From a virus, in the IMG/VR virus record IMGVR_UViG_3300025012_000653, positions 1 to 40,553 of that record: a stretch of DNA of 40,553 nt. One strand, written 5' to 3'. Under the pieces are notes generated by a model, which saw only the letters and a program-made list of their open reading frames with translations, ran no database searches and was not told where the DNA came from. The stretch's first letter is position 1. Each line of letters begins with the position of its first letter. A program made the position numbers and the translations under genes. This document shows, in pieces, positions 4,269 to 29,792 of the stretch.

Positions 4269-5759
4269 TCACTTCTCCTTCGGCGGAGCCGGAACAAGGT
4301 ACAGCTCAGACATTGCCCGGGTCGCCGCCACGTAGTTGAGGTTCAGCTCACACTGCTTCTCCCAGTCCTTGCGGAGCCACTTCGGCTCGCCCATCTGGAG
4401 CCAGAACACCCGGGACCACTCCCTCCCCTTGCTCTTGTGTACGGATGAGAGGAGGATCACGTTGCCCTTGACATCGTCCCCGAACAGCTTGTCGATCTCG
4501 CCGCACAGCGCCTCGACCACGTTGCTCACGTTCGGGTTGATCCTGGTGACCCGCTCGACCAGCAGACCCAGACAGCGGGCCTTGTCCTCGACCGCCACGG
4601 CCAGGCTCTCCTTCTGGCGGATACGGAGCTTGGTCGACTCCTTCTCACGCCAATCGTCCAGCTTGTCCAGGAACTTGTCGACCGACTTGACCTTCCAGCG
4701 GCGGGCCAGAGCCTTGAGCCCGTTGCCAATATCGCGACCCTCGATCTTGGCCGGGATCCCGTCCGATATGAACTTGTATGCCATGCCGATGATCGGCGCG
4801 TTGAAGCGGCACAGGATGGCGTCACCGGGCTTGACCACGGGGTACAGGTCCTCATGCTTGCCCAGACTCATCACCAGACCGTCCTTGGCGTCCGGGTGAC
4901 TCTCGATGTGGTTGACCCAGGTGCGAGCCAGCTCGGTGACCTTCTTCGGGCAGCGGTAGCTGACCGTAAGCGGGATGCGGGATGCTGACACCGCTGAGGC
5001 GATCAGCTCAAGGGCGTCCGAGTCAGCACCCGTGAAGCCGTATATGGCCTGGTGGGGGTCTCCCACCGCGACCAGGCGCCCGCCGCGCTTGAGCATGAGC
5101 AGCGCCAGGGCCCTGCGGGTGGCGTTGGTGTCCTGGGCCTCGTCTATCAGTACCCAGTCATACTCCTTGACCGGCTTGGACTTGTTCAGCAGGGGCAGAT
5201 AGATCATGTCATCGAAGTCGACCACGCCCGTCATCGAGTTGCTCTTGAAGAGGGTCTTGCGGGCCAGGTCGATGACCCGATCCTCCTGGTCATGGCACTC
5301 GACCGAGAAGTGGTCGATCAGATCGTACCAGTCATCATCAGTCCCCGGGACCAGGATCCCGAATCCGGCCTGCTTGGCAAAGCTCACCAGGTCACACACC
5401 GGGCCCCTGAAGTCTGCCTGCTCCTCTGGGGTCACCGCCGAGAAGGCGTTGAACAGCTTGTTCCCATCCACCTGCACGTTCCGCTGGGATCTGCGCCAGA
5501 TGGCGAACCCGGCCGAGTGCATGGTGGACACGTTAAGGGAGCACGTGAGCTTGAGGCCATTGGTCTTGTTCTGGATCTCTTCGGCGATCTTCTTGTTGTA
5601 GGCTCCGAAGAACACGTCACCGTTCATGCGGATCAGGCCCTGGATCAGCGTGGTGGTCTTGCCGCTACCGGCTACCGCCTCCAGAAGGGCTGAGCCCTTG
5701 CCATTCTCGATCCAGTTAAAATACTGAGCTTGCTGGGGGCTGGGCTTGAAGGTGCTCAT
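4269..5759 (-). CDS. UvrD/Rep-like SF1 DNA helicase
   Basis: A 496-aa ATP-dependent helicase, presumably 3'-5', for phage replication or recombination. Visible motifs: Walker A AVAGSGKTT (28-36), motif II VLIDEAQD (203-210), motif III VAVGDPHQAIYGFTGA (230-245), motif IV region SYRCP (about 269), motif V VHKSKGREW (about 441) and motif VI NYVAATRA (about 477). It is shorter than bacterial UvrD (about 700 aa), so the accessory 1B/2B subdomains are reduced. ATG 5759 overlaps the stop of the RMF-like gene (ATGA), with GGAGG 7 nt upstream. A second, divergent SF1 helicase lies at 7946-9361. Confidence 0.93.
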   Translation of the reverse strand: MSTFKPSPQQAQYFNWIENGKGSALLEAVAGSGKTTTLIQGLIRMNGDVFFGAYNKKIAEEIQNKTNGLKLTCSLNVSTMHSAGFAIWRRSQRNVQVDGNKLFNAFSAVTPEEQADFRGPVCDLVSFAKQAGFGILVPGTDDDWYDLIDHFSVECHDQEDRVIDLARKTLFKSNSMTGVVDFDDMIYLPLLNKSKPVKEYDWVLIDEAQDTNATRRALALLMLKRGGRLVAVGDPHQAIYGFTGADSDALELIASAVSASRIPLTVSYRCPKKVTELARTWVNHIESHPDAKDGLVMSLGKHEDLYPVVKPGDAILCRFNAPIIGMAYKFISDGIPAKIEGRDIGNGLKALARRWKVKSVDKFLDKLDDWREKESTKLRIRQKESLAVAVEDKARCLGLLVERVTRINPNVSNVVEALCGEIDKLFGDDVKGNVILLSSVHKSKGREWSRVFWLQMGEPKWLRKDWEKQCELNLNYVAATRAMSELYLVPAPPKEK

Positions 5760-7945: not shown

Positions 7946-9361
7946 TCACATGTCAAATGCCATGCGTGTCTGTGGCTGCACCACGTGCAGCGCGTTCTTG
8001 GCCCTGGTGGCTCCCACGTACCACACGCGGTGCTCGCCATCCGGGTCCATCTGGTATCCGCTCCATGACCGCGCACTCATGTCGGTCATCAGCAGTACGT
8101 TATCGGCCTCACCCCCCTTGACAGAGTGAATTGTGGCCACGTTGATCCTGGGTTGCTTGGTCAGACTCTCGCCGCGCCGCAGGATGCCTATGTACCACTC
8201 ACGGTCGATCAGCGGGATCTTGGTCAGCGCCTCGTGCCAGATGAGCCCGGTCACGTCCCGCTTGGGGATGAGCGTCTGCACGATGGCCCAGTCATCCGCG
8301 TCCGGGGACCCCCCCTTGCGCTTTAGCTCCCAGGCCCTTATGGCCCGGACGTGCCGCGGGTCAATGACCGATTCGCCGCGCAGGCTGTACGGGAGTCCCT
8401 GATCCCTTACCAGGGCCGTCAGCTTGGGCAGCAGGTGGGAGTTGCGGGCAAGCAGGTACCAACTCCCCGGGGTCGACAGATCCACGCTGTCCAGGGACAG
8501 ATGATGCTCTACCGAGCCCTGGTCAGCCTTAGGGTGATACGCCTTAAGATACCGGGACGTGATGCCCGAGGCGATCCCTTCGGCCACCCGATGTACAGCG
8601 ACCGGAACCCGGTGTGACTGCGAAAGGACCGTCTGCTCACCATCAAGAGCTTGAAAGTGGCGAACGTCAGCTCCACTCCACTGGAATATAGCCTGGTCAT
8701 CATCTCCCGCCACATACACCCTCCTCGCATTGGGCGTGACCACCCGGTTGACGTACTGCCACTGAAGCGTGCTCAGATCCTGGGCCTCGTCGATGATCAC
8801 CACGTCCACGTCCAGTATGGCCTGGGGCTCGCACAGCATGTCGGTGAAGTCGAGCACGCCCTTGGCCAGCTTGTACTCGGCCATTGTCTCTAAAAACCGC
8901 CTGAACTCCCACCAGTTGAGGTCATCGTCCGAGCACGACCGCCAAGCGTCCTCGAATGGTATGCACTTGGCCATGGCGTACCCGGCAAGGAACGTGTAGC
9001 GGTCGCCGTTGAAGCGTGAACTGGGCACGCCCTCCTCAATATCGAGCTTGGTTGAGAACCCCAGACCGAGCAGCTCACCAACCTCGCGGTACTGCTTGGG
9101 CTGCATGACCTCGTCCCGGCGCAGACCGAGCCGCGAGTATGCCAAGCTGTGGAGGGTGCGGAACCACGGCAGGTCCTCCTTGGTGAAGCTGAACTTGGCC
9201 ATGGCCCGTGACCGCGCCTCGTCGGCCGCGCGGCGAGTGAAGCTGAGGAAAGCGATGCGGTCGGGCCTGATCCCGGTGGCCAGCTCATCCTCCATGATGT
9301 TTAGGAGATGGTGCGTTTTCCCCGTTCCCGGGGGCCCGAGAATTAATTGCTGCTTATGCAC
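7946..9361 (-). CDS. UvrD-like SF1 helicase, second copy
   Basis: A 471-aa ATP-dependent DNA helicase. Motifs: Walker A GPPGTGKT (9-16), FLSFTRRAADEA (motif Ia, about 38-49), VVIIDEAQD (187-195), VAGDDDQAIFQWSGAD (217-232), SQSHRVP, and the C-terminal ATIHSVKGGEADNV and VWYVGATRA. It differs from the helicase at 4269-5759 throughout, so it is a second acquisition or an old duplication. GTG 9361 overlaps the preceding gene by 8 nt. It may act in replication or recombination with the SNF2 helicase and PrimPol. Confidence 0.93.
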   Translation of the reverse strand: MHKQQLILGPPGTGKTHHLLNIMEDELATGIRPDRIAFLSFTRRAADEARSRAMAKFSFTKEDLPWFRTLHSLAYSRLGLRRDEVMQPKQYREVGELLGLGFSTKLDIEEGVPSSRFNGDRYTFLAGYAMAKCIPFEDAWRSCSDDDLNWWEFRRFLETMAEYKLAKGVLDFTDMLCEPQAILDVDVVIIDEAQDLSTLQWQYVNRVVTPNARRVYVAGDDDQAIFQWSGADVRHFQALDGEQTVLSQSHRVPVAVHRVAEGIASGITSRYLKAYHPKADQGSVEHHLSLDSVDLSTPGSWYLLARNSHLLPKLTALVRDQGLPYSLRGESVIDPRHVRAIRAWELKRKGGSPDADDWAIVQTLIPKRDVTGLIWHEALTKIPLIDREWYIGILRRGESLTKQPRINVATIHSVKGGEADNVLLMTDMSARSWSGYQMDPDGEHRVWYVGATRAKNALHVVQPQTRMAFDM

Positions 9362-9653
9362 AGTATTTCTCCCACAGTCGGATGATGTGGTCGCGCTGCT
9401 TCACTGTGTACGACCGCTTCTGAAGGCACAGGTTGTGCATGTCACCGATAAAGTCCAGCTCCCAGTCGGTCACGTTCTCGTTGCCGGCGTACACGTCCAG
9501 CTCCTCGACCATGTGCCACAGATTCTGATTGGGATACTGCTGGCCTTGAATTCGAGGGGCATCTCCCTGCTTCATGGTGGACCCGCAGCAGACTGGCCAG
9601 CCGAATGTCTCCTTATCAACGGTTCGATTGCAGTCGGGGCAGTGGTATCTCAT
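9354..9653 (-). CDS. Zinc-finger-containing hypothetical protein
   Basis: A 99-aa protein; ATG 9653 overlaps the upstream stop (ATGA). The N-terminus has CPDCNRTV (C5, C8) followed by WPVCCG (C19, C20), a zinc-ribbon pattern. The C-terminal half is helical with a charged end (HNLCLQKRSYTVKQRDHIIRLWEKYCA). No strong Shine-Dalgarno precedes this ATG, which fits translational coupling. No family was recognised; it may be an accessory to the helicase gene it overlaps. Confidence 0.65.
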   Translation of the reverse strand: MRYHCPDCNRTVDKETFGWPVCCGSTMKQGDAPRIQGQQYPNQNLWHMVEELDVYAGNENVTDWELDFIGDMHNLCLQKRSYTVKQRDHIIRLWEKYCA

Positions 9654-9790
9654 ATGAGTTTGGCCACTGGGCAGGTACGCTGCCACGTTTGCAATCTCAA
9701 TTCGGCTTTCTCCGGTTCAGACAAGTGAGCATACCAGCGGTTGCTATCAATATCCCTGTAGTCGCTCTGACCCAACTGTAACTTGTTCAT
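9650..9790 (-). CDS. Small hypothetical protein
   Basis: A 46-aa protein found in the gap; ATG 9790 has GGAGG 5 nt upstream. It looks soluble and helical (DYRDIDSNRWYAHLSEPEKA, then LRLQTWQRT), with no membrane segment. It overlaps the zinc-finger gene downstream by ATGA and starts 1 nt after the stop of the frameshifted gene. No family recognised. Confidence 0.62.
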   Translation of the reverse strand: MNKLQLGQSDYRDIDSNRWYAHLSEPEKAELRLQTWQRTCPVAKLI

Positions 9791-9791
9791 G

Positions 9792-9999
9792 CTATTCCTC
9801 CACCCCGTGCAGAAAGGACAGCTGATTGACCACGATCTCTGACGGCGAGCAGTTCAGCTTTTCGGCTGCAACGGTGCGGAAGCCGTTCAAATGATCATTG
9901 GTAGTGACCATCTCTGGCGATCTGACGATCCCCTCGTAGTGGCTGACGGACTCTGACTTGATGTTCAGAGCGTGAAAAGTGATATACGTACCATTTCAT
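9792..9999 (-). pseudogene. Small gene needing a +1 frameshift (or with a broken start)
   Basis: The frame with clear protein character (HALNIKSESVSHYEGIV..., ending LNCSPSEIVVNQLSFLHGVEE, stop 9792-9794) has no usable ATG/GTG/TTG at its beginning. The only well-placed start is ATG 9999, which overlaps the PrimPol stop (TAATG), but it reads frame 0 and ends after 34 codons. A +1 slip on the TTTT run at 9975-9978 (CAC TTT TCA to TTT CAC) would join MKWYVYHF to the 60-residue body. Alternatives are a point indel or a start at the internal ATG within PEMVTTND. The function is not recognised. Confidence 0.5.
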
Positions 10000-11570
10000 T
10001 AGAACGGCGCCCCCTTCTCTTCTGTCTCCGGTATTGCGACCGGGTCGAAGTCTTCGGTCTGCTTCGCAAACGCCGGAAAGCCCCAGGCGCCCACGCACTG
10101 ACCCTTGATCATGAACCTGTGATTCTTGCCACCGTGGCGACGGAACACGGCCCACAGCTCGGCCTCCCTGAATGCCCTGAAGTGGTGCTGGTCACAAAAC
10201 TTGACAAAATCACGGCTCCGAAACCAAGTCACGTTATCATCATCCGTCCAGGGCCTGCCGAGGACCAGCTCCGCCTTGTCGCGGGCCTGGGCTTTACCAG
10301 TGCAGAACGCCTCCAGGTGCAGCATGAGCTGACCCTCCGGCCCGGCATCGGGCGGAAGCTCCAGTACCTCGGCCTCGGCCAGCAAGTCATTGACCTTGCT
10401 CTGCCACCGATCGGCGGGTATCTCCATCCGGACGCGCTCGAACTTCTTGGTGTAGGCCCTCAGAAACAGCTTCTGGTTATACAGCATGTCGAGGGTCACG
10501 TCCAGTTTCTTACCGGCAATGGTGAATACCCACTGAGGCTCGTCGTCGCGGTCATCCACTGGGCGGAACACCTTGACCGGGCGGTCGACCTCGTCCAGCA
10601 CGCTGGGGCCGCTGCTCTCCTTGGACGCGCGACCGGACTTTATCCCATACTTGCGCTTCCCGCACTCTGACTTGTTGCAGTGGTTGCACAGCGGCACGTC
10701 CGAGCACTTGTACTGATAATCCTTCTTCGAGGCCGACCGTATGATGTTGGTCACCTCGGCGTGGGCGCCGTTCATCCACTTCTGGTTATACTCGAATACC
10801 TTGTTCTGCCACTCGCCCTCCGGGTACACCTTCTTGGCGAACACGGCCAAGGACATGAGGGCGTTGTTCCGTGACCCCTCAGGGAAGCCGTCGAGTACCA
10901 GGAACTGGAGGCACGGCGGAGCGTCGGCCCACTCGTCACCGGTCACGGCCCTCGGCTGCAGGGCCTTGAGCTGATCCAGGGTCACGAGGTTCTCCTGGGC
11001 CAGGGCCAGGAACTCCGTGGCTGTCAGCACCTGACCCTTGCGGATGCAGTGCCTGACAGTATCCTGGACGTTCTGGTACGGCATGTTGATCCAGTTGCCG
11101 ATACCGTTGTCGCCGTCCAGCTCGGTCTGCTTGGGGAACACCTCGGCCCTGGGGTGGCCCAGGGCCATGGCGCACTCGCGCAGACGCTGCTGGATGAGAT
11201 TGGCGGGGACTGGTTCGTTGGTGAACATGTATAGGTGAGCGCCTCCGGACTTGCTCCGGAGGATGAGGAGTGGAGCACCGATGCTCTCGACCTGTTGCTC
11301 AAGCTCTGCGTGGTCGAGGCCGTCATACACGTCAATGTCGATGGCTCCCCACAGGCAGGTGCCGTCGTCCCGGATGGGTACGATCCCGATACCAGCGGTT
11401 CCGCTGAGGTGCCGCTCCCACAGGGCGTCGGTCACTGGGGTCTGAACCGTGCGGGCCTTGCCCTTGACCTTACCGTTGTGGGAGCGGTCGCCGTTCTCCC
11501 AGAATCCGTGGGCTCGCTCCAGCCCCTCGAACAGCTCGTGGAATTGTGAGGCAAGCTCGGAGACGGTCAT
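9999..11570 (-). CDS. Archaeo-eukaryotic-type primase-polymerase (PrimPol)
   Basis: A 523-aa protein with an AEP-type catalytic domain at about 1-170: the metal-binding DID at 78-80 (WGAIDIDVYD), SKSGGAHLY at 106-114 (SxGxH motif), EVFPKQ at 143-148 and GNWINMPYQ at 158-166. It resembles the primase of TOTE-type systems and phage PrimPols, which synthesise primers and can extend DNA. A Cys cluster (C289, C295, C298, C303, then KRKYG) resembles the C-terminal primase region of many phage/plasmid primases. No helicase domain is fused. ATG 11570 overlaps the previous stop (ATGA) with GGAGG 9 nt upstream. It is the only nucleotide-polymerising enzyme seen in the window. Confidence 0.85.
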   Translation of the reverse strand: MTVSELASQFHELFEGLERAHGFWENGDRSHNGKVKGKARTVQTPVTDALWERHLSGTAGIGIVPIRDDGTCLWGAIDIDVYDGLDHAELEQQVESIGAPLLILRSKSGGAHLYMFTNEPVPANLIQQRLRECAMALGHPRAEVFPKQTELDGDNGIGNWINMPYQNVQDTVRHCIRKGQVLTATEFLALAQENLVTLDQLKALQPRAVTGDEWADAPPCLQFLVLDGFPEGSRNNALMSLAVFAKKVYPEGEWQNKVFEYNQKWMNGAHAEVTNIIRSASKKDYQYKCSDVPLCNHCNKSECGKRKYGIKSGRASKESSGPSVLDEVDRPVKVFRPVDDRDDEPQWVFTIAGKKLDVTLDMLYNQKLFLRAYTKKFERVRMEIPADRWQSKVNDLLAEAEVLELPPDAGPEGQLMLHLEAFCTGKAQARDKAELVLGRPWTDDDNVTWFRSRDFVKFCDQHHFRAFREAELWAVFRRHGGKNHRFMIKGQCVGAWGFPAFAKQTEDFDPVAIPETEEKGAPF

Positions 11571-11947
11571 GCAGCATGACCTCCGATGCGACGTAGGGCC
11601 AGCTCCTCGACTGTGGCATCCTCCCAACGGTCAGCGCGCATTAATCTCTCGGGTATACTTTCATCGAAATACATTTTGGGCAATTTCGATGAGCAACATT
11701 CTGTCCCCTCCATCCAAAACCACGGACAGATACAGTCAGTCTCGCCCTTAGCCTTATACTCATTGTGTAATAAGTCGAACTTACATAACGAGCATCTCTT
11801 AGTACAGTCAACTGTCTCGTCGATACAGCCTGCGTATTCGGTTATCTGCTCCTGGCCCAGGTACTTGCGCCTTAGGTCCTGGATGGCCAGCAGCGATTCG
11901 GTGAGGATTTCGGTGGGCACTTCTTTGATGGTCTTGTAAACTTGCAT
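11567..11947 (-). CDS. Cys-rich hypothetical protein
   Basis: A 126-aa protein starting at ATG 11947 after GGGAGGGAGCAG. The middle has CIDETVDCTKRCSLCKFD, then CICPWFW and ECCSSK, about nine cysteines in 50 residues, implying a zinc or Fe-S site. Flanking regions are helical and acidic. It overlaps PrimPol by ATGA, so the two are probably made in fixed ratio, and it may assist primase function. No family was recognised. Confidence 0.68.
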   Translation of the reverse strand: MQVYKTIKEVPTEILTESLLAIQDLRRKYLGQEQITEYAGCIDETVDCTKRCSLCKFDLLHNEYKAKGETDCICPWFWMEGTECCSSKLPKMYFDESIPERLMRADRWEDATVEELALRRIGGHAA

Positions 11948-14952: not shown

Positions 14953-16623
14953 TCAAATCCAGTTGCTGATCCGATCCCCGTTAACCAGGTCCGCCAGCTC
15001 TTTCTTGCTGCGCAGGGCATCGATGACCTTATCGTCCAGAGTGTCCGGAGCCACCAGATCGATATATGTCACGGGGTTCTTCTGTCCAATACGGTGTGCC
15101 CGATCCTCCGACTGTAGCCTGTCGTCCAGGGAGAAGCTGTTCGAGTAGTATACGACCGTGGTCACGGCCGTCATGGTCTGGCCGCGGCTCACGCCCTTGG
15201 CCTGGGGGTTGCCGACGGCGAATCGAAGTGTGGGGTCCTCTTGGAGCCTCTTGATGCTGGCCTGACGCTCTTCCGGGTCAATGCCACCATGAAGCTCACA
15301 GACTGCGGCGAAGCCGTACCGGTCCCGCAGGGCCTGGGTGATGGCCTGAAGCTCGGCCCTGAACCGGGCCCAGATAAGGACCTTGCCGTCGACCTCCTCA
15401 AGCAACTCCATGAGGGAGGCGATGCGGGGGTTGACCTCATCGATGGCCTTGGGCTCCGCCTTTATGCACACGGTCGGAAAGTTATCCGTCTCGGATTCTT
15501 CAAAGAACTTGTCATCCTCGAAGCTGTACTCGGTCGCGTCCGGGACGAAGAACCCGCCCACGACCTGCTGAAGCCTCAGCATCTTGGTGAAGGCCAGCGT
15601 GGCGGTCATCTGCATCCCGCCCATCTCCGCGATCACACCCTTACGGAGCTGGTCGTAGATCCGGCGCTGGCGGTCGGACAGCTCGACATATCGCTTAGTG
15701 AACAGCTTCTCCGGTAGGTCGAGGCAGTCCGCCTTGGTCCGTCTGGTGATGTACGGCGCGATCTTCGCGCGAAGCTCTTCGATGCGCTGATACTGAGGCT
15801 TTCCGTTGTCGTCGGTCAGCACGAACTGGGCAAACTTGGCCTTGGGGTTTCGCTGCATGATGCGGCTGACCTGCATGGCCTGGTCGCGCTCATGCTTTGG
15901 CGCGAACCTGCCCTGAGCCAGTATAGCGGCCACGTCCACGATCTGGCAGTACCTGGCGCGGAACGAGTAGAGGCTGGGTATTCCGATGATCTCGGGGTCG
16001 AGCCAGTTCATCTGGCTCCAGACGTCCTCGGGACCCTGGGTCAGCAGGGTGCCGTTGAGCAGCCTGCGATACGGGAACCGCTCGCGCAGGGCCAGGATCT
16101 GCTTGGTGCATCCGGCCGAGGGATTCTTGATGATCGTGGACTCGTCGATGGCGCCAACGCAGCGGAACGAGCTTATGAACTGGGTGATGTAGTCGCGGCC
16201 GCGCTTGGTGTTAACGGCCTCGACATTGACCGCGAGGAACCGCAGGGCCTGGGACATGTGCTTGGGGGGTTTGTCGAGGAGCTGGAGTGCTGCCTTCTCT
16301 TCCTTATTCGGGGACGCTGACCAGTACGCGGACACGCACTGGATGTAGTCTGGCATGTGGGCCGGTATCTCGTTCAAGATCCAGTTGCGGTGGACCCCGT
16401 TCGGGGCGATGACCAGGACTCCGGTGATCTTACCCTTGAGAAACAGCCACGCCACGGTGTCGATAAGCTTCTTCGACTTGCCGGTGCCCTGCTCGTCTGT
16501 GAAGCCAAATACGACGGCGTCCCTGGATAGGAGAAAGTCCTCTGCCTGGTGGTCAAACGGCTGGGTCTTGAACCGATAATCGGTTACGACTGGTGACAAC
16601 GGTGGGACCTCCAAATATAACAT
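14953..16623 (-). CDS. SNF2/Rad54-type SF2 DNA helicase
   Basis: A 556-aa ATPase of the SNF2 branch of SF2. Walker A is EQGTGKSKK (44-52), motif Ia ITGVLVIAPNGVHRNW (66-81), motif II DEST (160-163) in place of DEAH, motif III LLNGTLLTQGP, motif V near SRGQTMTAVTTVVYYS, and motif VI EDRAHRIGQ (about 512-520). The last is characteristic of the SNF2 class, which translocates on double-stranded DNA to remodel or unwind. A phage protein of this kind is usually a replication/recombination helicase. ATG 16623 lies below the AT-rich gap, opening the early module. Confidence 0.92.
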   Translation of the reverse strand: MLYLEVPPLSPVVTDYRFKTQPFDHQAEDFLLSRDAVVFGFTDEQGTGKSKKLIDTVAWLFLKGKITGVLVIAPNGVHRNWILNEIPAHMPDYIQCVSAYWSASPNKEEKAALQLLDKPPKHMSQALRFLAVNVEAVNTKRGRDYITQFISSFRCVGAIDESTIIKNPSAGCTKQILALRERFPYRRLLNGTLLTQGPEDVWSQMNWLDPEIIGIPSLYSFRARYCQIVDVAAILAQGRFAPKHERDQAMQVSRIMQRNPKAKFAQFVLTDDNGKPQYQRIEELRAKIAPYITRRTKADCLDLPEKLFTKRYVELSDRQRRIYDQLRKGVIAEMGGMQMTATLAFTKMLRLQQVVGGFFVPDATEYSFEDDKFFEESETDNFPTVCIKAEPKAIDEVNPRIASLMELLEEVDGKVLIWARFRAELQAITQALRDRYGFAAVCELHGGIDPEERQASIKRLQEDPTLRFAVGNPQAKGVSRGQTMTAVTTVVYYSNSFSLDDRLQSEDRAHRIGQKNPVTYIDLVAPDTLDDKVIDALRSKKELADLVNGDRISNWI

Positions 16624-26847: not shown

Positions 26848-28227
26848 CTACCTCCACCCGCCAGCTAACGCTGGGTTGGCCATACGCTCAAGTTGATACA
26901 CGGTCTCCCTGCCGGCGCCGTACGGGTCGGTCGACTGGATCTGGATGGTGTTGGTCTGGGTCACGGTGTTTCCGGTGCTCTGCCTGGGGATCGCGTCGGC
27001 GATGTTCTTCTGTATCTGGGCCACGCCGAGTTGGTCGTTGCGGTACCACTGAGCAAAGTTGTCGAGCATGTCCTTGGCTCGCGACTTGCCTGACGCGCTT
27101 CCTGCGCGCTTCCACTCATTCTCCGGTGTGCGCATCCAATCAGGCAGCTTATCGTGAATCCAATCCAGTCCGCGGTTGATCAGCGTGTCCTTGCCGGACG
27201 AGCTTATCTTTCCTTGCTCATCCACCTCGAAGCTGGTCGAAGCATCCTCCAGAGCCGCGATGATGGCCATGACTGCGGTGCCAATGGCGATATACTTGGC
27301 CGCGATGATAGTGAGCACAGCCGCCACCCCGGCCAGTGCCATCGCCACCCCGCCGCCGAGTAGCTTGGGGTCCGCGATGAGGCCCACGAACTTGGCCACC
27401 CAGGGGATCGCAGCCTTGAGATTATCGAGCATGCCGGAGAACTGGGACACGCCCCGGCCGACCCCTTCGATGAATCTCTGGAGGCCGCCGTTGATCAGAC
27501 GCTGGTTGGCCTCGTACCACTGGATCGTCTTGGTGATCACCTTCTCGATGAATGGCAGGATGCGGATGCCGAGCTGCTGCGCAAACTTCTGAGCATGACC
27601 CAGGGCTCGCTTCCATGCCTGCTCGAACCGGTATGCCTTCTCAGCGTCGGATGCCGTGAGCTTCTGGCGGTCAGCCTCGGCGAACAACTTGGCCAGCCCG
27701 TCCTTTTCGTGCCTCAGCACCATCACGGTGTCGGGGCTGATACCCATGAGCCTGCCCCACTGCATGGCCTTCTGTGCGGTCAGCTTGGGGAACACCTTGG
27801 CCAACTCCTGGAGGACCTGGTTGGCGTCCTTGAAGTCCTTAAGGCGTGATCCGAAGAACAGATACATGCCCTGGTTGAAGTCTCCGGGCATGATGGGGTT
27901 GAGCGATGAGGTTATGCCCTCGATGTCCCTGAGGATCGACTCCTTGCTGCCGGCGATCTGGTTGGCTGCATAGGACCACCGCTGAATGGAGTCTGTAGAC
28001 ATGCCTGTGAGTTGGCGGAACCGCTCAATCTCAGCCCCAGCGTGAGCAGACTTCTCGGCAAAGTACACCAGTGATGTGGCCGCCCCGATGATGCTGGCAC
28101 TGGCCACCATCGCGTACTTGTTGATGCTGTCCAGAGCGCGGGTGAACTTGGCCGCGGTGGGATGAGCACCGGGGTCCACCTTGAATCCGAGCAGCGTTAC
28201 AAGCTCATCGATGATGCTCTGTCCCAT
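26848..28227 (-). CDS. Tail tape measure protein
   Basis: A 459-aa tape measure protein that sets tail length and probably helps DNA cross the host membrane. Long amphipathic helices fill residues 20-280, and a hydrophobic hairpin lies at about 285-325 (GGGVAMALAGVAAVLTIIAA, AIGTAVMAIIAAL). It has the usual position after the tail-assembly chaperone. At 459 aa it is short; if about 0.15 nm per residue applies, the tail would be about 65-70 nm. ATG 28227 is 9 nt past the end of the chaperone extension. Confidence 0.88.
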   Translation of the reverse strand: MGQSIIDELVTLLGFKVDPGAHPTAAKFTRALDSINKYAMVASASIIGAATSLVYFAEKSAHAGAEIERFRQLTGMSTDSIQRWSYAANQIAGSKESILRDIEGITSSLNPIMPGDFNQGMYLFFGSRLKDFKDANQVLQELAKVFPKLTAQKAMQWGRLMGISPDTVMVLRHEKDGLAKLFAEADRQKLTASDAEKAYRFEQAWKRALGHAQKFAQQLGIRILPFIEKVITKTIQWYEANQRLINGGLQRFIEGVGRGVSQFSGMLDNLKAAIPWVAKFVGLIADPKLLGGGVAMALAGVAAVLTIIAAKYIAIGTAVMAIIAALEDASTSFEVDEQGKISSSGKDTLINRGLDWIHDKLPDWMRTPENEWKRAGSASGKSRAKDMLDNFAQWYRNDQLGVAQIQKNIADAIPRQSTGNTVTQTNTIQIQSTDPYGAGRETVYQLERMANPALAGGWR

Positions 28228-28236
28228 TTGAGGTCC

Positions 28237-28865
28237 TTACTTCTGTGGGTTTTCCAGCTTGGTCTGCTCCGCTTCCAGGTGGCCCTTAAGGTTCAGGCTG
28301 CGGTGCATGTCGATCAGGTCACTCAGCGTGAGGCTCCCGTCACGCAGCTCGCGCCAAGAGCACATCCCATCCCATACCGGGCGGCCTAACCAGTAGTCGG
28401 TTGACCACCCGTCTGGGATCTGAACGCCTCCCCGGCCCGAGACATCATGGTCTGGGGGATCGAGGTCAGAGAGGCGGGTAAGAAAGGGCTCGTAATCTCC
28501 CACAGGCACCAGAGCATGACCTGGAAGACCTCACCGCGGCACTGGGAGAAGTGGCGCTCGAAGTTGAGCCCGGTGATCGGCTGGCCATCACAGCATAGCC
28601 CGGAGTGGCTGACCGCATCCATGAGCAGAGCATTGGTGGCGATCGGGTCAAGCTGAGAGATGACCGAACCGAGTCTACCGAGCACGGCTTCAAGTTTCTT
28701 CTCATGGCTGGAGTCTGCCGACACGATTGACCCCAGGTCGGCGAACAGCCCAGCAACTGGGCCGAATACGGTCAGGGTTCTGGTGGCGAGCGGCAGTGCA
28801 ATGGTAACTGCGGGAAGCAACAGCTGATAGCCTCGATCATTTAATTGAAGGTCACGCTTTTCCAT
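28237..28865 (-). CDS. Tail-assembly chaperone long form (predicted -1 frameshift fusion)
   Basis: Predicted 209-aa product: the first 128 codons of the short chaperone, then 81 residues in the -1 frame ending at 28237. The second frame (28237-28509) overlaps the first by 124 nt, sits exactly in -1 phase and has no strong start of its own. A C CCT TTC heptamer (28482-28488) lies in the overlap. The extension is Asp/Pro-rich, then helical (SLTLSDLIDMHRSLNLKGHLEAEQTK). This copies the lambda G/GT and P2 E/E' arrangement, where the long form binds the tape measure. Confidence 0.75.
28386..28865 (-). CDS. Tail-assembly chaperone short form
   Basis: A 159-aa protein from ATG 28865, directly after the tube-like gene stop (TAAATG). 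Residues 15-50 are hydrophobic/helical, and LNFERHFSQCRGEVFQVMLWCLWE near 100-123 is typical of phage tail-assembly chaperones located between tube and tape measure genes. It reads in frame 0 through the slippery site and ends in a Gln/Gly/Thr tail. It would coat the tape measure before tube polymerisation. Confidence 0.75.
   Translation of the reverse strand: MEKRDLQLNDRGYQLLLPAVTIALPLATRTLTVFGPVAGLFADLGSIVSADSSHEKKLEAVLGRLGSVISQLDPIATNALLMDAVSHSGLCCDGQPITGLNFERHFSQCRGEVFQVMLWCLWEITSPFLPASLTSIPQTMMSRAGEAFRSQTGGQPTTG
28482..28488 (-). promoter_or_regulatory. -1 ribosomal frameshift site C CCU UUC
   Basis: The heptamer fits X XXY YYZ in the zero frame (codons CCT TTC). Five nt downstream, CGCCTC (28471-28476) can pair with GAGGCG (28425-28430), enclosing a smaller AGAC/GTCT hairpin: a plausible stimulatory structure at the usual distance. 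Confidence 0.72.
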
Positions 28866-29306
28866 TTACAGGAGTCCTCCCACCACGGCTTCAACCGCGG
28901 AGCCGTCCAGACGGATCTTGAGGGCCTTGAGTGGGAACTGACGTCCCTGCATGGTTGGCCCACCGGTCTGGAACTGGGGCATGTCGGCAAAGGCGCAGCC
29001 GCTGGCCGTGATGATCTCCTCCACCCCAGTGACCAGTGATACGGTGAACAGCCGGGGATTGTTGGCCTGCTCTTCGCGCAGAGCATATAGCGTTCCGAGC
29101 GCGGGGCTGGTGGGCTGAAGCGCGATGGTAACCTCACCACCTTGTTGGGTGCTGATGTTCATCGCGGGGCCGTCGCCACCCTTGGTGATCTCGGCGGCAT
29201 TACCGTCAACCTTGATCTGCATGTAGTCACCCTCGGCAAATCCCTGGATGGGTATGCCGTCGATCACCACGATGTGTCGATTTTGAGAATACAAATTTAC
29301 GCGCAT
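28866..29306 (-). CDS. Tail tube protein paralog A (DUF3277-like)
   Basis: A 146-aa tube-type protein from ATG 29306 with AGGAGG about 8 nt upstream. It shares the frame LYSQN.H...IDG.P..GFA.GD, the SPALG block, LFTVSLVTGVEEII and GCAFAD.P with its neighbour at 29331-29792. This is the pattern of DUF3277-type myophage tube proteins placed after the DUF3383 sheath. Which of the two forms the tube is not decidable from sequence. It directly precedes the chaperone, the usual place for the tube gene. Confidence 0.78.
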   Translation of the reverse strand: MRVNLYSQNRHIVVIDGIPIQGFAEGDYMQIKVDGNAAEITKGGDGPAMNISTQQGGEVTIALQPTSPALGTLYALREEQANNPRLFTVSLVTGVEEIITASGCAFADMPQFQTGGPTMQGRQFPLKALKIRLDGSAVEAVVGGLL

Positions 29307-29330: not shown

Positions 29331-29792
29331 TCAAGAGCCGAAATTTACAAGACCGCCCAATATACCGTTTTGTGATTTTATGCCGCCCTCAGTCCATCTG
29401 AGTTTTATGCACTCTATGATAAATTCACGGGGTGCCATCACCGGACCACCCATTCGCCACTCGGAAATGTCACCAAATCCACAGCCCATGGCGCTGAATA
29501 TCTCTTCGGTTCCGGTGATCATCGACATGTTAAATAATCTGGCCGCGGTGCGTACCTCGGTTCTAAGGCTTAATAATTCACCCAGTGCGGGGCTGATCGG
29601 AAGCAATCCGATGACTATCTGCCCGCCCTGTGATGCCACCCGATTCAGTACTGGGCCATATGAGCCCTGCGTCCTGGTAACTCCGCCTCCGTCTATCTTT
29701 ACACCCAACCAGTCACCGTCGGCAAATCCGGTGACCGGAAACCCGTCGATGATCAGCGTGTGAAGATTCTGGGAGTACAAGGGCAGTCGCAC
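29331..29792 (-). CDS. Tail tube protein paralog B (DUF3277-like)
   Basis: A 153-aa protein from GTG 29792, 2 nt after the sheath stop. It is clearly homologous to paralog A along its length (LYSQNLHTLIIDGFPVTGFADGD at the start, SPALGELLSLRTEV, LFNMSMITGTEEIFSAMGCGFGD), with a different C-terminus. Its DNA is more AT-rich than paralog A. It may be the main tube, a tube-end specialised copy, or a recent acquisition. Confidence 0.78.
   Translation of the reverse strand: MRLPLYSQNLHTLIIDGFPVTGFADGDWLGVKIDGGGVTRTQGSYGPVLNRVASQGGQIVIGLLPISPALGELLSLRTEVRTAARLFNMSMITGTEEIFSAMGCGFGDISEWRMGGPVMAPREFIIECIKLRWTEGGIKSQNGILGGLVNFGS

Follow-up and report, generated by a model that had tools for sequence, protein, structure and literature searches.

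Programmed frameshifting has been published in the tape measure chaperone gene of Burkholderia phage Magia (NC_070954; PMC7883833), and a conserved -1 frameshift has been described in the chaperones of the Vandenendeviridae and Andersonviridae (phage Adele), which have contractile tails and multiplied tail tube genes (PMC12846349). In phage SPP1, a -1 frameshift at a UUUUUUC heptamer has been predicted in the tail chaperone, giving gp17.5 and gp17.5* (PMC6316719). All 64 X_XX.Z_ZZ.N motifs have been measured in E. coli by Sharma et al. (2014), who considered C_CC.U_UU.C as one of three motifs "because they exhibit high level frameshifting" and who counted H_HH.U_UU.Y with the motifs that work best in bacteria (PMC4066793). 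Here, we describe a locus in the contractile-tailed phage contig of an uncultivated virus (IMG/VR virus record IMGVR_UViG_3300025012_000653; the whole 40,553-nt stretch analyzed is referred to as the window), in which two overlapping open reading frames, A and B, very probably constitute one recoded gene for a tail-assembly chaperone expressed through a programmed -1 frameshift, a conclusion that we draw with high confidence from sequence comparison.

The features of the locus are listed in Table 1. ORF A and ORF B overlap by 124 nt, with B in the -1 phase, and the open stretch of the B frame begins at 28530, giving an open overlap of 145 nt. The tail tube stop codon directly precedes the ORF A start, and the gap between the end of ORF B (28237) and the tape measure start is nine bases. 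A first-pass annotation had described this overlap as lying in exact -1 phase between tube and tape measure genes and had predicted a long form of 209 aa; its coordinates and counts hold, and we compute the fusion as 128 + 81 residues with a mass of 23.1 kDa, compared with 17.1 kDa for the short form. The upstream side of ORF A carries a pair of tail tube paralogues (phrog_280), including the immediate neighbor, and a DUF3383 tail sheath gene. The tandem tail tube paralogues at 28866-29306 and 29331-29792 (minus strand), each matching phrog_280, recall the multiplied tube genes of the Vandenendeviridae (PMC12846349). Elsewhere, the window encodes two UvrD-like helicases, a TOTE-type archaeo-eukaryotic primase, and a SNF2-type helicase (4269-5759, 7946-9361, 9999-11627, and 14953-16623, minus strand).

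Table 1. Coordinates of the chaperone locus and its neighbors, numbered from the first letter of the window.
Feature	Position	Strand	Details
Tail-assembly chaperone, short form (TAC-N, lambda gpG-like), ORF A	28386..28865	-	159 aa; Pfam Phage_TAC_15; between tail tube and tape measure genes
ORF B	28237-28509	-	90 aa counted from GTG; -1 phase relative to ORF A
Slippery heptamer C CCT TTC	28482..28488	-	P-site CCU to CCC, A-site UUC to UUU
-1 frame extension (TAC-C, lambda T-like domain)	28237..28488	-	83 codons, heptamer to stop; phrog_4364, DUF6889-like
Predicted fusion (TAC-NC, gpGT-like)	28237..28865	-	209 aa; length and sequence computed
Dual-coding segment	28386..28488	-	103 nt, heptamer to frame-0 stop; low divergence
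Possible stimulatory hairpin	28425..28476	-	10-bp stem, arms 28476-28467 and 28434-28425; 5 nt past heptamer
TGGGAG, possible weak Shine-Dalgarno-like element	28497..28502	-	8 nt upstream of heptamer; suggestive only
Tail tube protein, upstream neighbor	28866..29306	-	phrog_280, E 2.4e-18
Tape measure protein, downstream neighbor	26848..28227	-	phrog_2276, E 1.4e-26

The heptamer C CCT TTC (28488-28482) is correctly phased, as the annotation had proposed: AGC CCT TTC in frame 0 is re-read as CCC TTT C in the -1 frame, and this is the sole in-frame X XXY YYZ site within the overlap. The window's other genes provide a background of 26 in-frame X XXY YYZ sites in 9016 codon positions, only 4 of them of strongly slippery classes; about 0.02 strong sites would be expected by chance in the 41-codon overlap. 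Since C_CC.U_UU.C supports high-level frameshifting in E. coli (PMC4066793), the window heptamer is slippery by experiment elsewhere. Our search of the open literature, to which subscription papers such as Xu 2004 do not belong, recovered no report of CCCUUUC or CCCTTTC in phage frameshifting. The annotation had suggested that C CCU UUC could be a less-described slippery site, and within the family it is indeed confined to this phage and one relative; however, the motif is already efficient in E. coli (PMC4066793) and is a near neighbor in sequence of the C CCT TTT used by Burkholderia phages with published frameshifting, and thus it is a rare variant slip site and not a new kind, with a mechanism already known.

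A tblastn search of ORF A against phages gave no matches, and scans with single proteins recovered only a near-identical contig; it was sheath matches and alignments that opened the family, which we gathered by scans of viral contigs and one scan of genome contigs. Comparison of the heptamer across related phages, which the first-pass annotation had named as a check, bears out the arrangement: of 19 family contigs from one scan, 18 have the -1 frame and the chaperone joined in the same place. The position homologous to C CCT TTC in these 19 contigs reads T TTT TTT in 15, T TTT TTA in 2, and C CCT TTC in 1, leaving L135 as the exception. Conservation of C CCT TTC itself is only weakly tested, by a single other contig that carries it unchanged (L004, IMGVR_UViG_3300025000_000760), which is independent of the window record, shows the same arrangement, and encodes a chaperone 95% identical to that of the window. 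The ancestral slip site of the family was probably T TTT TTT, which the lineage of the window replaced with C CCT TTC. High G+C content as the sole reason for this choice was rejected, as T TTT TTT is retained in L022/L131 (one contig, 56-57% GC) and in L123 (55% GC). Two members of the collection have other peculiarities near this region: L135 encodes a B-like domain (1001-1380) upstream of which we found neither an X XXY YYZ slip site nor a clear chaperone frame, and L008 has two adjacent tape-measure-like genes (8825-10528 and 10529-11917), the first of which, as judged by eye, seems to carry a C-terminal part resembling a lytic transglycosylase.

ORF B could instead be a separate gene whose translation begins at a GTG within it (28509 or 28503), for example through translational coupling, given that in-frame GTGs lie 15 to 21 nt upstream of the heptamer, that the one at 28509 is a possible start, and that B appears in the output of ORF finders with a length of 90 aa. 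However, no Shine-Dalgarno sequence precedes GTG 28509 at normal spacing, and in many relatives the heptamer is not preceded by any start codon. Nine contigs (L019, L122, L126-L129, and L132-L134; some closely alike, so not nine independent cases) have a B frame that becomes open precisely at the heptamer and lacks an earlier start codon, and in these the conserved part therefore cannot arise by separate initiation. Similarity of the B protein begins at the heptamer and not at the GTG, with 44 to 53% identity to relatives from the heptamer onward, and the 30 nt preceding the heptamer remain variable, with 4 differences between the window and L004. We consider a separate gene highly improbable.

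Constraint on both frames is evident from three close pairs of contigs (window/L004, L012/L014, and L016/L017), in which divergence is 9 to 13% where only A is encoded, 1 to 5% from the heptamer to the A stop, and 7 to 10% where only B is encoded. For the window and L004 the corresponding values are 9.3%, 1.9%, and 6.7% (P = 0.014 for this pair alone), and pooled over the pairs the dual-coding segment has 7 substitutions in 303 positions versus 164 in 1548 elsewhere (Fisher P = 3.7e-7). Changes fall at the wobble position of frame A in 97 of 121 cases before the dual-coding segment and at that of frame B in 32 of 43 cases after it. Family, phase, conserved slip site, and dual coding can be read from the sequences compared here.

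A fusion made by transcriptional slippage, with the polymerase and not the ribosome changing register, is conceivable in relatives whose site consists of seven consecutive T. Runs of three C or three T are too short for polymerase slippage, and the window site has only these, while it keeps the tandem-tRNA geometry X XXY YYZ. The replacement of T runs found at the same place in relatives argues that the conserved event is ribosomal, and transcriptional slippage is an extremely improbable explanation. Finally, although the window derives from an uncultivated virus record, the notion that the overlap reflects a sequencing indel or a decaying gene has negligible probability, being contradicted by the constraint on both frames and by the recurrence of this arrangement, which we see in an independent contig and also in many relatives and in isolated phages. 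Programmed -1 frameshifting, which the first-pass annotation had proposed for this chaperone, is supported because family membership, gene order, homologous slip sites, start-less relatives, and dual-coding constraint all favor it.

The sequence flanking the heptamer offers candidate stimulators. The annotation had noted a CGCCTC/GAGGCG stem starting 5 nt downstream; the start is as described and falls within the 4- to 10-nt rule for downstream structures of Sharma et al. (PMC4066793), but the stem is longer than stated, with 10 bp and about -23 kcal/mol, and as a stimulator it does not exceed chance expectation. Compared with shuffles and random positions, the hairpin was not stronger than chance (z about -1.2), and an equally strong hairpin occupies the 4- to 10-nt slot at 39 of 150 random coding positions (26%) in this GC-rich genome. 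The same fold is present in L004, where both substitutions lie outside the 10-bp stem, and a search for a shared fold in the relatives found none in common. Upstream, TGGGAG lies 8 nt from the heptamer in the window and 11 nt in relatives, encoding a conserved Trp-Glu; of 10 family members, 9 use GAG and not GAA for this Glu. TGGGAG could be a weak internal Shine-Dalgarno element of the kind known from dnaX, but its role in coding the conserved residues must be set against this. It is possible, though we hold this only tentatively, that the lineage retained the frameshift but exchanged T TTT TTT for C CCT TTC, accompanied by a suitably spaced GC-rich hairpin, which would make it a natural experiment in slip-site class within an otherwise conserved cassette, with a possibly compensating stimulator.

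ORF A matches Pfam Phage_TAC_15 (PF21822) with an E value of 1.4e-7 and 32.5 bits, above the curated cutoff of 22, and all 10 aligned family members (the window and nine relatives) match this family at E < 0.01. ORF B matches phrog_4364 (E = 8e-12) and Pfam DUF6889 (PF21829; E = 0.004), the latter with 17.3 bits, below the curated cutoff of 23.9. The B parts of Providencia phage PSTCR3, Burkholderia phage Magia, and Aeromonas phage ZPAH14 exceed the DUF6889 cutoff, and that of Erwinia phage Y2 scores exactly at it. A profile comparison of the window-family B with the Burkholderia-type B (E = 1.8e-9), aligned from the first -1-frame residue at the slip site, supports homology of ORF B to DUF6889 despite its score below the cutoff. 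Because these relatives exceed the cutoff and the profiles match, we infer that DUF6889 is the frameshift-encoded "T" domain of TAC_15 chaperones. Our search of the open-library literature found no mention of DUF6889; the reading suggests a function for this family and indicates that the second chaperone part is missing from several public phage annotations.

The AlphaFold2 model of ORF A (mean pLDDT 78) has two N-terminal strands followed by helices, of which helix 110-128 ends at the slip site, and that of ORF B (pLDDT 75) has a low-confidence stretch of 19 residues and then a small helical domain. The models would suit a globular N part connected to a separate C domain by a linker that spans the dual-coding stretch. 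A fold search of the PDB with the chaperone model gave no significant match, while a viral model library yielded seven matches at E < 0.001, one of them named putative tail assembly protein, and weaker matches with weak scores that include named tail-assembly chaperones, such as that of Citrobacter phage Moogle.

Under the frameshift reading, most ribosomes would translate ORF A and stop at 28386, producing the short chaperone. In a minority, the peptidyl-tRNA-Pro on CCU and the tRNA-Phe on UUC would re-pair one base upstream with CCC and UUU, and translation would proceed into ORF B to produce the long form. By analogy with lambda gpG/gpGT, the N-terminal part common to both forms may coat the tape measure protein, and tail tube subunits may be recruited by the domain encoded in the -1 frame. 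Slippage at this heptamer, its rate, and these roles in assembly are what we infer here.

The locus agrees with frameshifted tail-assembly chaperones of the lambda G/GT type in gene position, in a second ORF that overlaps in a shifted frame and needs no start of its own, and in an in-phase slippery site. It differs from lambda gpG/gpGT and the conserved frameshift of Xu, Hendrix, and Duda (2004) in heptamer (G GGA AAG in lambda) and protein family, and the lambda tail, unlike that of the window phage, is non-contractile. SPP1 is likewise distinct in its UUUUUUC heptamer, non-contractile tail, and Gram-positive host, and the phage Adele group in its GTTTTT slip motif. Haemophilus phage Aaphi23 (ORF54-54', annotated as a joined coding sequence) and Chaseviridae such as Erwinia phage Y2 have the same sheath family and TAC_15 as the window, but their -1 extension occurs at T-run heptamers, T TTT TTT or T TTT TTC, versus C CCT TTC. 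In the Chaseviridae-type records L010 (2884-3171), L025 (1863-2147), L026 (1863-2150), L028 (1875-2153), and L029 (1884-2171), the extension is unannotated, leaving an empty gap before the tape measure gene despite a T TTT TTC slip site. Among Burkholderia-type loci, strict C CCT TTT is present in 58 of 80 by our script criteria, and most others keep TTTT with the first base changed. About 20 of the 80 have no strict X XXY YYZ site and show G CCT TTT, T CCT TTT, A CCT TTT, or T TCT TTT instead (L055, L063, L064, L091, L103, L106, and others of L037-L116, near position 1195-1205), which suggests that a P-site mismatch may be tolerated there. Magia shares TAC_15 and DUF6889 with the window and has C CCT TTT at the aligned position, differing in a heptamer that ends in T rather than C and in a sheath only about 26% identical. 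To these systems the window adds a rare natural use, in a phage chaperone, of C CCU UUC, a motif known to us mainly from E. coli reporter assays.
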